Shown here: in pieces, positions 1,432 through 36,435 of the stretch
Numbering within the stretch: the first letter of the stretch is position 1
Layout of the letters: the number at the start of each line of letters is the position of its first letter
Origin: an uncultured Planctomycetaceae bacterium
Lineage (GTDB): Bacteria > Planctomycetota > Planctomycetia > Pirellulales > UBA1268
DNA length: 38,320 nt
Reading direction: 5' to 3'
Assembly: GCA_903831155.1 (NCBI GenBank)
Contig: CAIKWU010000020.1
Location: 1 to 38,320, forward strand
The notes under the pieces: generated by a model
What the model was told of the DNA's origin: nothing
The model's input: only the letters and a program-made list of their open reading frames with translations
The model's database searches: none
Position numbers and translations under genes: made by a program

Positions 1432-1445
1432 ACCACGGCATGACC

Positions 1446-1548
1446 TCAGCGCGGGATTGCCCGAGCCTGGCGTGGTGCGTCCGCGGCCTTACGGCCGGTC
1501 GGCTTGTACGAATGCGGCATGAAGTCAGCGAGGGATTGCCCATGCCCC
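1446..1548. repeat. Two direct, diverged repeat copies (CGGCATGAnnTCAGCGnGGGATTGCCC)
   Basis: cggcatgacctcagcgcgggattgccc (from ~1436) and cggcatgaagtcagcgagggattgcccatgcccc (from 1515). Opposite in orientation to the tandem repeats at 1632-1751. Confidence 0.75.
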
Positions 1549-1631
1549 GAGAGCCGGCGTATGCCGCCAAGCGGAGCCAGGATGGCGAAGCGCCGGCGGC
1601 ATCCGAGTGAGCCGAGGCCACGATGGCCGAG

Positions 1632-1751
1632 GCGAATGTCCGGCGATGGGGCATGGGTAATCCCGAGCCACGCGAATGTCCGGCGATGGGGCATGGGTAA
1701 TCCCGAGCCACGCGAATGTCCGGCGACGGGGCATGGGTAATCCCTCGCCAG
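1632..1751. repeat. Tandem 40-bp repeat, about 3 units
   Basis: gcgaatgtccggcgatggggcatgggtaatcccgagccac at 1632-1671 and 1672-1711 (identical). Third diverging copy gcgaatgtccggcgacggggcatgggtaatccctcgcc from 1712. Confidence 0.93.
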
Positions 1752-1762
1752 ACGCCAGGCCA

Positions 1763-3025
1763 TCACGCCTCGGGCGGGATCTCGCGTCCGTGCGGATCGC
1801 TCGCATCGCCGGCCATCTCGGCCTCGAGCCTGCGCCGCATCGCCGCGCCGAGATGGTGCTCGACCCACTCGGCGGGCGGATGGAGGTGGTCGAGCGGCAG
1901 GTCGGCATGCCGGCCGAGCCAGGTTTCCCAGAGCCGGTGCGACCGCACGATCATCTCCGCCTCCCGCCGGCCCGAAGGGGTGAGCCGCAGCCGGCCCGAC
2001 TCGGCAACGAGCAGGCCGGCGGCCCGCAGCCACCGTTCGGCCCAGGTCACGATCCACGACGCCTCGGTGAGCGCCGCGGCCTCGCCGGCCTCCTCGGCCC
2101 GCCAGGCGGCGGCGAGCCGATCCTCGCGGGCCACGCGCCACGCGAGCCGCAGCCGCGACAGGCCGCGGGCGAGGAGACCGTCGTCGGGGGCCACGAGCGC
2201 GGCTGCCACGTACTCGACCCCGAGCACCACCGCGATCATGCCCGCCGCGCTCGTGCTGCATCGCCAGGCGATCGCGTAGCCCACGCAGCCGCCGACCGCG
2301 GCCAGCAGCATCGCGAGCAACGCCATGTGGTGCAGCCGCCGCGACAGGAGCTCGGCGGCGGCGGCGGGCACCACGAGCAGGGCCACCACGAGCACCGCGC
2401 CGACGGCGTCGAAGCTCGCCACGGTCGCGACGGCCGTCGCCACGAGCAGCCCCGCCGTCACGACCGCAACCGGCAGCCCGGCCGCGCGGGCGGCCGCCGG
2501 ATCGAAGGCCGTGAACACCTGGAGCTTCCAGGTGGCCGCCGCGGCGACGACGAGGCCCACGAGCGTGGCAGCCCCGGCCAAGAACCCCCGCGGCACGTCC
2601 ACGTCCGCCACCCGCACCGTGTCGAAGGGCAGGAAGGCGAGATCCCCATGCAGCACGCAGGCGGGATCGAGGTGGCTTCCGGGTGGCGCGGCGGCGACGA
2701 TCACGACCCCGACGGCGAACAGCGTGGTGAACACGACCCCCGCGCCCGCGTCCTCGGCGGGGCCGTCGCCCTCGCGGATCACCCGCGTCAGCCAGACGGT
2801 CAGCACCGCGGCGGCCACGGCGCCAAGGAACACAAGCGGGCCGCCCGGCCTGCCGCCGGCGAGCACCGCCACCGCGACCCCGGGCAGCACGGCGTGCCCG
2901 ATCGCGTCGCCCAGGAGGCTCAGCCGCCGCACGACGAGCAGCGTGCCGACGAGTCCGCAGGCGGCCGCCACGACCGCCGCCGTCGCCATCGCCCAGCCGT
3001 GCACGTGGAGCGTGGCGTCAGGCAT
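1763..3025 (-). CDS. Metal ABC transporter permease with C-terminal DtxR/MntR-like winged-helix plus metal-binding/dimerisation domain
   Basis: ORF from ATG 3025 ([49 protein letters not shown]...), 420 aa, ABC-3/ZnuB-type TM region. C-terminal ~142 aa include GLLVAESGRLRLTPSGRREAEMIVRSHRLWETWL...LHPPAEWVEHHL...DPHGREIP, colinear with DtxR/MntR. Confidence 0.9.
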   Translation of the reverse strand: MPDATLHVHGWAMATAAVVAAACGLVGTLLVVRRLSLLGDAIGHAVLPGVAVAVLAGGRPGGPLVFLGAVAAAVLTVWLTRVIREGDGPAEDAGAGVVFTTLFAVGVVIVAAAPPGSHLDPACVLHGDLAFLPFDTVRVADVDVPRGFLAGAATLVGLVVAAAATWKLQVFTAFDPAAARAAGLPVAVVTAGLLVATAVATVASFDAVGAVLVVALLVVPAAAAELLSRRLHHMALLAMLLAAVGGCVGYAIAWRCSTSAAGMIAVVLGVEYVAAALVAPDDGLLARGLSRLRLAWRVAREDRLAAAWRAEEAGEAAALTEASWIVTWAERWLRAAGLLVAESGRLRLTPSGRREAEMIVRSHRLWETWLGRHADLPLDHLHPPAEWVEHHLGAAMRRRLEAEMAGDASDPHGREIPPEA

Positions 3026-9297: not shown

Positions 9298-10794
9298 ATG
9301 GTTCCCCTCGTCGCCAACGCGAATCGCTGGATGATCGCGCTTCCGCCGATCTGGCTCGTCGGAGCCGGCGCCGCCGCGGCCCTGCTGGCGACACTGCTGG
9401 CCTATGGCATCCTTCGCCTCGTCGCGCCCCGCCTCGCGGCCGAGGCCCGCGTCAGCCTCGGTGACGGCTTCCTCGGGCCGCTCGCCTGGCTGCTCGTGGT
9501 GGCGTCGGCCCTCGCGGTCGCCATCACGCCGCTGGTGCCGATCGACCAGATCGTCCGGTCGCTCGCCCGCATGACGTCGGCCGACGACTTCCGGACCTCC
9601 GTCGCGGTGCCGGTGGGAGCCGACCTGCAGGAGGTCGTGCTCGGCTTCCGCCCGCAGGAACTCTCCACCATGTGGATGGAGAGCGATGCGCCGCTGATGG
9701 TCCGCACGCAGCAGGCGGTCGAGGGATTCGCCCTCGCCAAGGATGCCGACGTGCCGCTCGAGGCGGACCGCCGCTGGGCGTGGACGAGGACCGAGGGTGC
9801 CACGAACCCCTTCCTCGGGCAGCGGGCGAAGCTCGAGGCGAGCAACGACGGATCCGCCGCGGCCACGCTTTCCGTGGGCTGGAGGCTCGTGCCCGAGAAT
9901 CCCCAGGCAGCCGTGCTGCCGTGGTCCTTCGTGGTCCTCGCCTCGGTCGTCGCGGCCTACTCCCTGTTCAGGCTCGGGGCGCCGCGGGTGGCGGCGATCG
10001 CCTCCGCGACCACGAAGGAGGCGATCGGCCAGCCGGTCTTCACGGTGGCGATCGTGGCGGGCATCGCCCTGCTGCTGGCCTTCATCGTGATTCCCTACAA
10101 CACGTTCGGCGAAGACGTGAAGATGCTCAAGGACAGCGGCCTCACCCTGATCAAGGTGCTGGCGCTGCTGGTGGTGGTGTGGACTGCGAGCGTGGCGGTG
10201 GCCGAGGAGATCGAGGGCCGCACGGCCCTCACGGTGCTCTCCAAGCCGCTGTCCCGCTGGCAGTTCGTGCTCGGCAAGTTCGCCGGGCTCGTGCTGGTGG
10301 CAACGCTCGTATTCCTGATCCTCGGCGGCGTGCTCTTGGCAACGACGAGCCTCAAGGTGGTCTACGACGCCCGGGAATCCTCCAAGACCGATCCGCTGTG
10401 GCGGGAGTGTGCCGACGAGATGATCACCGTGGTGCCGGGGCTGGTCCTGTCGCTGCTGGAGACGATCCTCATGGCGGCCGTGAGCCTCGCCGTCTCGACG
10501 CGGCTGGGGATGGTGCCCAACCTGATCGTCTGTTTCTCCGTCTACGCCCTCGGCCACCTCGTGCCGCTGATCGTGCAGTCGAGCGTGGGCAAGTTCGCGA
10601 TCGTGCGGTTCTTCGGAAAACTGATCGCGACACTGCTTCCCGTGCTCGACCATTTCACGATCGAGGCGGCGGTGATCGGCGGCGCCCCCGTGCCCTGGAT
10701 CTACCTCGGCTGGGCCGCCCTCTACGCCGCGCTCTACTCGACGCTGGCGATCCTCGTCGCGCTCATCCTCTTCCAGGACCGCGACCTGGCCTGA
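9298..10794 (+). CDS. ABC-2-type transporter permease-like membrane protein
   Basis: 498 aa; KEAIGQPVFTVAIVAGIALLLAFIVIPYNTFGED...EEIEGRTALTVLSKPLSRWQFVLGKFAGL, typical of ABC-2 permeases; multiple TM segments. Confidence 0.85.
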   Translation: MVPLVANANRWMIALPPIWLVGAGAAAALLATLLAYGILRLVAPRLAAEARVSLGDGFLGPLAWLLVVASALAVAITPLVPIDQIVRSLARMTSADDFRTSVAVPVGADLQEVVLGFRPQELSTMWMESDAPLMVRTQQAVEGFALAKDADVPLEADRRWAWTRTEGATNPFLGQRAKLEASNDGSAAATLSVGWRLVPENPQAAVLPWSFVVLASVVAAYSLFRLGAPRVAAIASATTKEAIGQPVFTVAIVAGIALLLAFIVIPYNTFGEDVKMLKDSGLTLIKVLALLVVVWTASVAVAEEIEGRTALTVLSKPLSRWQFVLGKFAGLVLVATLVFLILGGVLLATTSLKVVYDARESSKTDPLWRECADEMITVVPGLVLSLLETILMAAVSLAVSTRLGMVPNLIVCFSVYALGHLVPLIVQSSVGKFAIVRFFGKLIATLLPVLDHFTIEAAVIGGAPVPWIYLGWAALYAALYSTLAILVALILFQDRDLA

Positions 10795-10815
10795 CCTGCC
10801 CAGGTCGTGCATCGC

Positions 10816-10844
10816 GTCCGGCGACGGGGCATGGGCAGCCCCGA
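10816..10844. repeat. Dispersed copy related to the 40-bp repeat
   Basis: gtccggcgacggggcatgggcagccccga versus tandem unit gtccggcgatggggcatgggtaatcccga, in the 56-bp gap between convergent genes. Confidence 0.8.
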
Positions 10845-10850
10845 AGCATG

Positions 10851-11468
10851 TCACCTCGTCAGGCCGGTGCGGGCCGCCACCCCCACCATCGACGCCCCGT
10901 CGGTCGCGGTGCCGGGCATCGACCACCAGCCGGTCTCGGCCGACCGCATCGCCTGGGCCTCCGCCTTGCCGTCGATGAACACCGTGACGCCCTTCCCGAG
11001 CCGCCGCTCGACCCGCGGGCCCAGTTCGACGCCCACGAGGCCCCACTCGGCGTTGTTGCCCACGATGGTGCGGAGTTCCAGCGACTCCCGGCCGTCGCCG
11101 CGATCGTTCGACACCCCGACCCGGCCCGTCCAGCGTGCCGGCCCCTCCTCCACCACCTGCGAGTCGGCGAGCAGCCCCGCCGAGACGTCGAACCGGTCGA
11201 TCCGGCTGCGGAGTTCGGCCGTGAGCGGCACAGGCGGCGCGTCGCGACCGGAGGGTCCCTGCATCACCACGGCCACCTCGGGCATGCTTCGCAGACGCTC
11301 GCGTTCCGTCGCTGCCGAGATCCGCTGGAGTTCCGCCGCGATCGATCCCGACCCCTGGAAGTCGTCGAGCCCGAGGCCGTCGAACACGACCGGCGGCGCG
11401 GCGCCACACCACGCCGCGACAGCGGCGAACACGACGGCGACGAGGGACGTGACGATGCGGCGGGGCAT
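10851..11468 (-). CDS. Hypothetical secreted protein
   Basis: ATG 11468: MPRRIVTSLVAVVFAAVAAWCGAAPPVVFDGLGLDDFQGSGS... signal peptide; no family recognised. ORF extends to 11528. Confidence 0.7.
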   Translation of the reverse strand: MPRRIVTSLVAVVFAAVAAWCGAAPPVVFDGLGLDDFQGSGSIAAELQRISAATERERLRSMPEVAVVMQGPSGRDAPPVPLTAELRSRIDRFDVSAGLLADSQVVEEGPARWTGRVGVSNDRGDGRESLELRTIVGNNAEWGLVGVELGPRVERRLGKGVTVFIDGKAEAQAMRSAETGWWSMPGTATDGASMVGVAARTGLTR

Positions 11469-23885: not shown

Positions 23886-23926
23886 GGGCGCCTCGCAGGC
23901 CTTGAGACTCCCCTGAAACGGTCACG

Positions 23927-23948
23927 AACGCAGTGAGGGGCTGCCCCG
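23927..23948. repeat. Dispersed repeat relative (GCAGTGAGGGGCTGCCCC)
   Basis: acgcagtgaggggctgccccg between convergent helicase and ALDH genes; 14/16 match to tcagcgaggggctgcc at 15297. Confidence 0.55.
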
Positions 23949-23973
23949 ATCCGAAGATCGACCATGCACCGCA

Positions 23974-34665: not shown

Positions 34666-36435
34666 ATGAAGCGGCCTGACGCACCACGAACGGAACCGAA
34701 GGCCGCCGGAGCACGTCCCGGGGGCGGTCCGTCCCCGTGGGTCGGCATGGGGGGCGGCCTGATCATCGGGCTGGCCGTGCTCTTGGCCTTCTGGCCGTCG
34801 CTGGGCGGCGGGTTTCTCTGGGACGACGACACCTGGATCGCGGCCGTGCCGACCACGCCGACGCACCGGCTGATCCACGACGACGGCGGCCTGCGAGACA
34901 TCTGGCTCACGCACCAGACGCAGGATTATTGGCCGCTGTCCAACTCGGTGTTCTGGCTCGAGTGGCGGCTCTGGGGCATGAACCCCACGGGTTACCGGGC
35001 CGTCAACCTGGCGCTGCATGCGATCGGCTCGATCCTGGCCTGGCGCGTCGGGCGGCGCCTCGGCGTTGCCTGGGCATGGCTCGGGGCGATCCTGTTCGCC
35101 GTCCATCCGGTGACGGTCGCCTCCGTGGCGTGGATCGCGGAGCTGAAGAACTGCCTCTCGCTCGCGCTCCACGCCGCGGCCCTCCTGCTCTGGCTCCGGT
35201 TCGATGACACCGGCCGGCGGGGCTGGTACGCCGCGTCACTGGTGGCATTTGCCCTCGCGCTGACGGCGAAGACCTCGACGGTCGTGCTGCCGGTCCTGCT
35301 TCTGGCCTTCGCCTGGTGGCGGCGGGGACGGATCGACCGACGGGACGTCGCCCACGCCGCGCCCTTCTTCCTGCTCGCCGTCGCGATGGGCCTCGTGACG
35401 TTGTGGCGGCAGACGTCGGGACCCGGCGTTCCGGGCGACGACGCCGCCGACGGTCTGCTCTCGCGGATCGCGGCGAGCGGCTGGGCCGCGTGGTTCTATC
35501 TCTCGAAGGCGCTCGTGCCGGTGCGGCTGGCGATGCTCTATCCGCGGTGGACGGTCGATCCCGCCACGGTCACGGCCTGGCTGCCCCTGGCAGCCCTCGG
35601 CGCCGCGGCGCTCGGCATCCAACGGCTCGATCCACGCTGGCGACGGCCGCTCGCCATGGGCCTGGGGTGCTACCTCGTGTCGCTCGGCCCGGTGCTGGGC
35701 ATCTTCCCGATGTGGTTCCGTCGCTACTCGCTGGTGTCGGATCATCTTCAATACCTGGCTCTTCCGGCGATCACGATGCTCGTGGCGGCCGGCCTGGGGA
35801 GGTCCGCCACGCTCGAGGGCTGGCGGCACGTCGCCACGGGAGTCGCGGCGGTGCTCGTGCTCGGCTGCACGGCGCTGACGTGGGAGCGGAGCAGCGTGTT
35901 CACGTCGACCGTCAACCTGATGCAGGACTCGCTGGCGAAGAGCCCCGACTCATGGACGGCCCACACGAACCTGGGAGCCGCCCTCGGCAGCCTCGGCCGC
36001 CCCCAGGAGGCGATCCCGCACTACGAGGCGGCCCTGCGGCTGAGGCCCACGTCGTTCCAGGCGCACAACAACCTGGCTGCGGTGCTGTTCCAACTCGGCC
36101 GCCCGCAGGAGGCGATCCCGCACTACCAGGAGGCGGTGCGGATCAACCCGGACGTCGCGGAGATCCACTCCAATCTGGGCGTCGCCCTCGCCCTGCTGGG
36201 CAAGATCCCCGAGGCGACCGGCCATTTCCAGGAGGTGGTGCGGCTGGCTCCGAGTTCGGCGGAGGCCCACAACAACCTCGGCTACATGCTCGCGATCCAG
36301 GGCCGGCTCGTCGAGGCCGTGCCCCACTACGAGGAGGCCTTGCGGCTGAACCCCGCCCACGAGAAGGCCCGCGACAACCTCGGTCGTGCCCGGGAGGACC
36401 TGCTGCGGCAAGAGCGCGGCGAACAGGCTCCTTGA
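34666..36435 (+). CDS. TMTC-like multi-pass membrane protein with C-terminal TPR repeats
   Basis: GGFLWDDDTWI...DYWPLSNSVFWLEWRLWGMNPTGYRAVNLALHAIGSILAWRVGRRLG...HPVTVASVAWIAELKNCLSLALH, then at least 4 TPRs (NLGAALGSLGRPQEAIPHYEAALRLRP...). Confidence 0.88.
   Translation: MKRPDAPRTEPKAAGARPGGGPSPWVGMGGGLIIGLAVLLAFWPSLGGGFLWDDDTWIAAVPTTPTHRLIHDDGGLRDIWLTHQTQDYWPLSNSVFWLEWRLWGMNPTGYRAVNLALHAIGSILAWRVGRRLGVAWAWLGAILFAVHPVTVASVAWIAELKNCLSLALHAAALLLWLRFDDTGRRGWYAASLVAFALALTAKTSTVVLPVLLLAFAWWRRGRIDRRDVAHAAPFFLLAVAMGLVTLWRQTSGPGVPGDDAADGLLSRIAASGWAAWFYLSKALVPVRLAMLYPRWTVDPATVTAWLPLAALGAAALGIQRLDPRWRRPLAMGLGCYLVSLGPVLGIFPMWFRRYSLVSDHLQYLALPAITMLVAAGLGRSATLEGWRHVATGVAAVLVLGCTALTWERSSVFTSTVNLMQDSLAKSPDSWTAHTNLGAALGSLGRPQEAIPHYEAALRLRPTSFQAHNNLAAVLFQLGRPQEAIPHYQEAVRINPDVAEIHSNLGVALALLGKIPEATGHFQEVVRLAPSSAEAHNNLGYMLAIQGRLVEAVPHYEEALRLNPAHEKARDNLGRAREDLLRQERGEQAP

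Follow-up and report, generated by a model that had tools for sequence, protein, structure and literature searches.

A dispersed structured intergenic repeat of one planctomycete family and its orientation along the chromosome

The window analyzed here, a stretch of 38,320 nucleotides from an uncultured Planctomycetaceae bacterium, contains direct and inverted repeats in a gap between two convergent genes. What are these repeats, and do they belong to this locus only?

The repeats in the nfo gap and the element that contains them

The gap extends from the end of an nfo-like gene (position 1431) to the end of the last gene of a metal-ABC operon (1763). Pfam assigned the upstream flank to AP_endonuc_2 and the convergent flank (1766–3025, − strand) to an ABC-3 metal permease fused to Fe_dep_repr_C, the C-terminal domain of an iron-dependent repressor, which bears out the convergent setting given in a preliminary description of this DNA. 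Three head-to-tail units of 40 nt, also reported there, were recovered on the + strand at 1632–1671, 1672–1711 and 1712–1751, the first two identical and the third at 90%. The inverted arm at 1528–1549 pairs with 1727–1748 over 22 nt at 95%, the two being 177 nt apart, and the alternative right arms proposed earlier are present as well, the same arm pairing with units 1 and 2 over 17 nt at 94%. A search with the 17-mer arm (up to 3 mismatches) gave 5 matches compared to 0.06 expected in shuffles, far beyond chance. A further inverted copy, placed earlier at 1446–1462, falls inside a 32-nt direct repeat (1436–1467 versus 1515–1546, 84%); 1436–1467 is a degenerate copy of the left arm region on the + strand. 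The folding z-score was −4.0 for the 331-nt region and −7.3 for the 137-nt core described below.

Repeat counts were derived from searches of the host draft genome (4.39 Mb, 652 contigs, 89% complete), in which the 331-bp region used as query gave 62 matches. Because many copies lie at contig ends, the element appears to fragment assemblies. The repeats are real, but they do not form a local cluster: the locus is one copy of an element dispersed in about 100 copies in the host genome, and the idea that the sequence might be unique to this locus is false. Alignment of the matches revealed a common core of ~140 nt, which extends beyond the 40-bp repeat. The latter stands as a real repeat but is only one end of the larger unit, its right half.

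The fold of the core (RNAalifold and a hand-extended model) consists of an 18-bp closing stem P1, an inner 5-bp stem and a three-way junction with two hairpins, P2 and P3. The copy in the window is a full match to covariance model R1 (1520–1671, + strand, 169.8 bits). On this strand, the arms of P1 lie at 1532–1549 and 1647–1664, the left side of its inner part, P1b, at 1553–1557 with 1640–1644 as partner, P2 at 1558–1605 (inner tip 1571–1591) and P3 at 1611–1633; the conserved loop of both hairpins has the form ASGAN.

The stems of the element show strong compensatory change. Both-sided changes were found in 18 pairs compared to 10.9 expected in shuffles and in 120 cells compared to 36.9 expected, while pairing is kept in 93.8% of cells and in 31–47% of those of slid-partner controls. 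P3 is the most variable stem and retains its pairing through both-sided changes, several variants having tandem G.A pairs (G opposite A). In three orthologous copies common to genome G002 and the host, P3 is altered on both arms and the flanks are similar, a pattern suggestive of rapid compensatory change or of conversion between copies. Neutral change in a double-stranded repeat is expected to produce G.U and A.C in equal numbers. On the + strand, we counted 130 G.U cells and 32 A.C cells (27 versus 5 by pair column), so that the fold of one strand seems constrained; this excess argues strongly for such a constraint, with the reservation that related copies are not independent and the comparison is therefore not a clean test. 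Rfam returned no match at the gathering threshold and none at E up to 5, and uncultivated planctomycetes would have in this element an abundant structured repeat that Rfam does not contain.

The right half is present three times at this site of the window, unit 1 belonging to the core and unit 2 being its identical tandem copy. The inner units end CCCGAGC, and the terminal unit 3 ends CCCTCGC, which is fully complementary to the left end GCGAGGG. Fourteen copies (set A3) have 2–4 right halves with a spacing of about 40 bp; the same motif, which misses diverged units, detected no tandem right halves in 62 copies from other species. Right halves also occur solo or in short arrays, a 22-mer giving 115 matches versus 2 for the reversed control. 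A repeated unit that occurs in inverted pairs and is amplified in tandem or in mosaics has the architecture of BIMEs. Elsewhere in the window, there is an isolated right half-unit, a fragment or a solo unit (10812–10845, + strand), and a collapsed half-unit hairpin (23922–23955, + strand; weak match, E 0.13). A separate dispersed hairpin module (CCGCGGCCTTACGGCCGGTCGGCTTG; 1470–1505, + strand) lies left of the core and also left of several other copies, and a second dispersed hairpin module of the form GGATTTGTGAG...CACAAATCTC was seen directly left of several copies (left flanks of L046, L060, and L146).

Distribution, turnover and gene context

Within the genomes surveyed, the element is restricted to one planctomycete family. 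The covariance model gave 99 matches in the host genome, 57 in G002, 63 in G019, and 76 in G131. In a survey of relatives, 34 of 60 genomes were positive, all from the same family, and an order-wide survey found the element in 32 of 36 family genomes and in 0 of 161 others. In a sample of 293 other genomes of the phylum, the model had no match, and no element was found in the phages, plasmids, and viral contigs searched. The family members lacking it in the order-wide survey are G022, G023, G194, and G034, and only 2–3 copies were found in G024 and G033.

Occupied sites differ between genomes. The nfo relatives that share the neighborhood are planctomycete MAGs, of which L061, L062, and L065 hold the element at the same gap, in copies from different subfamilies, and many others hold none. 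Filled and empty versions of a gap were observed in both directions: host contig C391 is filled where G028 is empty, and G012 is filled where host contig C304 is empty. Comparison of host contig C642 with G014 placed one copy at a gene-order break. These relatives are too distant for the exact ends of the element to be read. Target duplications were in no excess over shuffled flanks or pairs in 61 copies, among which old ones may have lost them, and no autonomous parent with the same ends was met in the loci examined, which come from fragmented draft genomes. A half element with a transposase gene (L053/C391) was considered as an autonomous version and rejected, since it is an insertion sequence inserted in a copy with its own 11-bp duplication. 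This insertion (L271, about 9375–10893; G000:C391; duplication CAGGCGGCATC) is apparently of the IS4 type, judging from duplication length and end sequences. In the window, a TPR-like gene (34666–36435) sits where G002 (L296) has an element copy.

The position of copies relative to genes was determined with gene calls from a simple codon-usage script, whose boundaries are approximate. Among 50 copies of the first set with both neighbors, 21 were in convergent gaps, 28 in co-directional gaps (14 sense, 14 antisense) and 1 in a divergent gap, compared to a background of 20 convergent, 77 co-directional, and 43 divergent gaps of at least 100 bp. In an independent set of 64 copies from other species, none overlaps a gene; convergent gaps held 20, co-directional gaps 36 (16 sense, 20 antisense) and divergent gaps 3, and element-free gaps numbered 27, 98, and 73, respectively. 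Divergent gaps are therefore depleted (3/59 versus 73/198, p = 5e-7) and convergent gaps enriched (p = 9e-4), and the median distance of copies from a gene 3′ end is 59 nt. This placement, intergenic, after genes and rare between divergent genes, is of the REP/REPIN type. A terminator cluster had been suggested for the gap, but the U-run that follows the GC-rich hairpin of an intrinsic terminator was looked for and not found, and copies are sense and antisense to genes equally often. Because of this equality, the location after genes is most simply explained by purging of harmful insertions, and copies may have a local role in mRNA 3′ ends.

Orientation along the chromosome and candidate enzymes

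The orientation of the element follows GC skew, not transcription. In the first set, flanking GC skew read in element orientation had a mean of −0.017, and the regression intercept was −0.017 +/− 0.004 after correction for gene orientation. In the independent set, skew was negative at 28 of 37 loci (p = 0.0026), and neighbors more than 1 kb apart were on the same strand in a ratio of 17:4 (p = 0.007). Genome G019 has contigs of up to 330 kb with copies mostly on one strand (p = 0.0005), and element orientation is opposite to GC skew in 17 of its 20 stretches. Because copies share ancestry, significance values are overstated. Replication direction is taken here from GC skew, which is no more than a proxy; a G-rich leading strand is consistent with rpoB in G131 and the ribosomal L2 gene in G019, and rpoB in G019 is on a contig with mixed copies. 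With this proxy, the element presents the orientation bias by replication strand of IS200/605-type elements. Transposition of IS200/IS605 elements as single strands at forks predicts hairpins, no target duplication, and strand polarity (PMC6006769), and all three are seen here.

A link to a RAYT, the REP-associated transposase, had also been suggested. It was tested and not found: the element model had no match in 13 sources holding Y1 genes, and no Y1 transposase was found linked to the ends of the element. Y1 genes and copy number do not go together: element-rich genomes such as G012, G013, G021, G026, G032, and G035 gave no Y1_Tnp match, while G022 has four and no element. The GTAG foot, unpaired and 5′ of the hairpin, is absent from the consensus of 39 copies. 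The host does have a RAYT-like Y1 transposase gene (L269, 13521–14255; G000:C94; motifs NHWH and YVERNP) bounded by inverted repeats (AGATTTGGTGGCTGGCACCTTTT), which are unrelated to the element.

Explanations and known systems

The element is a real, abundant, family-restricted structured repeat that works like a BIME and, by the features that define GTAG and CGTC REPs, belongs to neither of them. The preliminary description, which had listed a REP-like or MITE element or a structured RNA among its options, was right in kind, since the sequence is dispersed and intergenic, lies at gene 3′ ends and has stems that covary. That the repeat is a dispersed, structured element can be taken as secure, whereas its spread is inferred. 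Very probably, it is a lineage-specific, non-autonomous, BIME/REP-like element of ~140 nt. Our preferred reading as a whole, to which we give a probability of about 0.55, adds replication-fork spread, purging, and later right-half arrays. Two inverted half-units enclosing a conserved two-hairpin core form the three-way junction on one strand, and copying would occur while the element is single-stranded at replication forks, through an enzyme acting in trans, of the IS200/IS605 type or similar to it. Insertions harming promoters or genes would be purged, so that those in 3′ regions persist; slippage or unequal recombination would later have multiplied the right half into the 40-bp tandem arrays, and any effect on mRNA 3′ ends would be secondary. 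The route itself, via single-stranded DNA at the fork with an enzyme now lost or unrecognized, is proposed tentatively, at somewhat less than even odds. Against the preferred reading, the element has no linked transposase, and no target duplications were seen, although insertion of the IS200/605 type does not produce any. Moreover, provided that the leading strand is the G-rich one, it is the complement of the apparently constrained strand that is found on the lagging-strand template. A simple IS608 model does not predict this mismatch, which leaves room for an RNA intermediate.

Selection is the core of two other explanations. A functional 3′-UTR RNA, either a protector of mRNA 3′ ends or a bidirectional terminator independent of U-tracts, maintained by selection at each locus, would account for copies after genes with convergent gaps enriched and divergent gaps nearly empty, for orthologous copies that keep pairing while the P3 sequence changes, and for an RNA-like tolerance of G.U and G.A on one strand. 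We consider it unlikely, since co-directional copies are sense and antisense equally (14/14 and 16/20) even though one strand in particular is the better paired, species differ in the loci occupied, no U-tract was found, and orientation tracks GC skew rather than transcription. A polar signal of chromosome architecture or replication, similar to KOPS or gyrase sites and kept in one orientation by selection, agrees with strand coherence over contigs of 100–330 kb and with a structured sequence in non-coding gaps. Such a signal is hard to reconcile with the quick turnover of occupied sites between species, with its absence from four family members and the 2–3 copies in two others, and no binding protein is known, which makes it very improbable.

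The two other explanations invoke known modes of mobility. An ordinary REP/REPIN with a GTAG foot, mobilized by a RAYT, fits the inverted intergenic units, the high copy number and the Y1 transposases of some family genomes; the lack of the foot in the consensus, of elements near the Y1 loci tested, and of any relation between Y1 presence and copy number, together with the unrelated repeat around the host Y1 gene, already disfavored it, and little weight is left to it. A MITE of the classical kind, with the terminal inverted repeats of a DDE transposon and a duplicated target, fits the inverted ends of about 18–22 bp, the length of ~140 bp and the dispersed distribution. It is equally doubtful: duplications do not exceed those of shuffled pairs, no autonomous partner was seen in the loci examined, the only IS found within a copy is unrelated to it and has an 11-bp duplication of its own, and orientation bias by chromosome strand is unexpected for double-strand cut-and-paste. 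It is also conceivable, though unlikely, that the element represents a new class of small mobile structured element, in which the conserved part is a single-stranded (RNA or DNA) fold and not a linked transposase gene, with fork integration at fixed polarity and P3 exchanged as a unit between copies.

Among known systems, BIMEs and REPINs (inverted REP pairs of E. coli and Pseudomonas) resemble the element in that half-units are inverted on either side of a spacer, combine in mosaics with other repeats and are amplified in tandem, and in their high copy number, lack of target duplication, and intergenic location in convergent and co-directional gaps. Our element differs in its larger unit (~140 nt), in a spacer that is a conserved covarying three-way junction, in having neither GTAG foot nor linked RAYT, and in an orientation that follows the chromosome strand. 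BOX, ERIC and similar intergenic repeats are ~100–200 bp long with a stable stem-loop, BOX having a tandemly variable module; here, in a comparison of general features, the variable module is the right half. Relative to IS200/IS605 (IS608), the element has in common hairpin ends, no target duplication and orientation tied to the replication strand, but no transposase was found for it and the active strand is not a simple fit. CGTC-tagged REPs have no dedicated transposase, lie downstream of genes and form mostly inverted pairs (Di Nocera 2013, PMC3733652). The element resembles them in these respects and its right half contains CGTCC, but it has no 8–9 bp stem starting with AT after the tag, no 4–5 nt loop, and no consistent CCA tail. 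Its replication polarity without a recognizable transposase bears on how transposase-less palindromic repeats spread, a question raised for the CGTC REPs (PMC3733652). In Planctomycetes, the “atypical structures” of class 3 TnpA-Y1 genes are high-copy, flank these genes, and have a CnGA foot (Quentin 2018, PMC6006769). The element shares with them its high copy number, an atypical secondary structure and the phylum, but no class 3 motif was seen in the Y1 loci examined here.

Palindromes of the form CACAGGTTGGAAACCTGTG are recurrent in gaps of related genomes (L061, L062, L205, and L292), and G131 holds many close inverted pairs of the element, about 17 bp apart, for example at C14:46736–47052.
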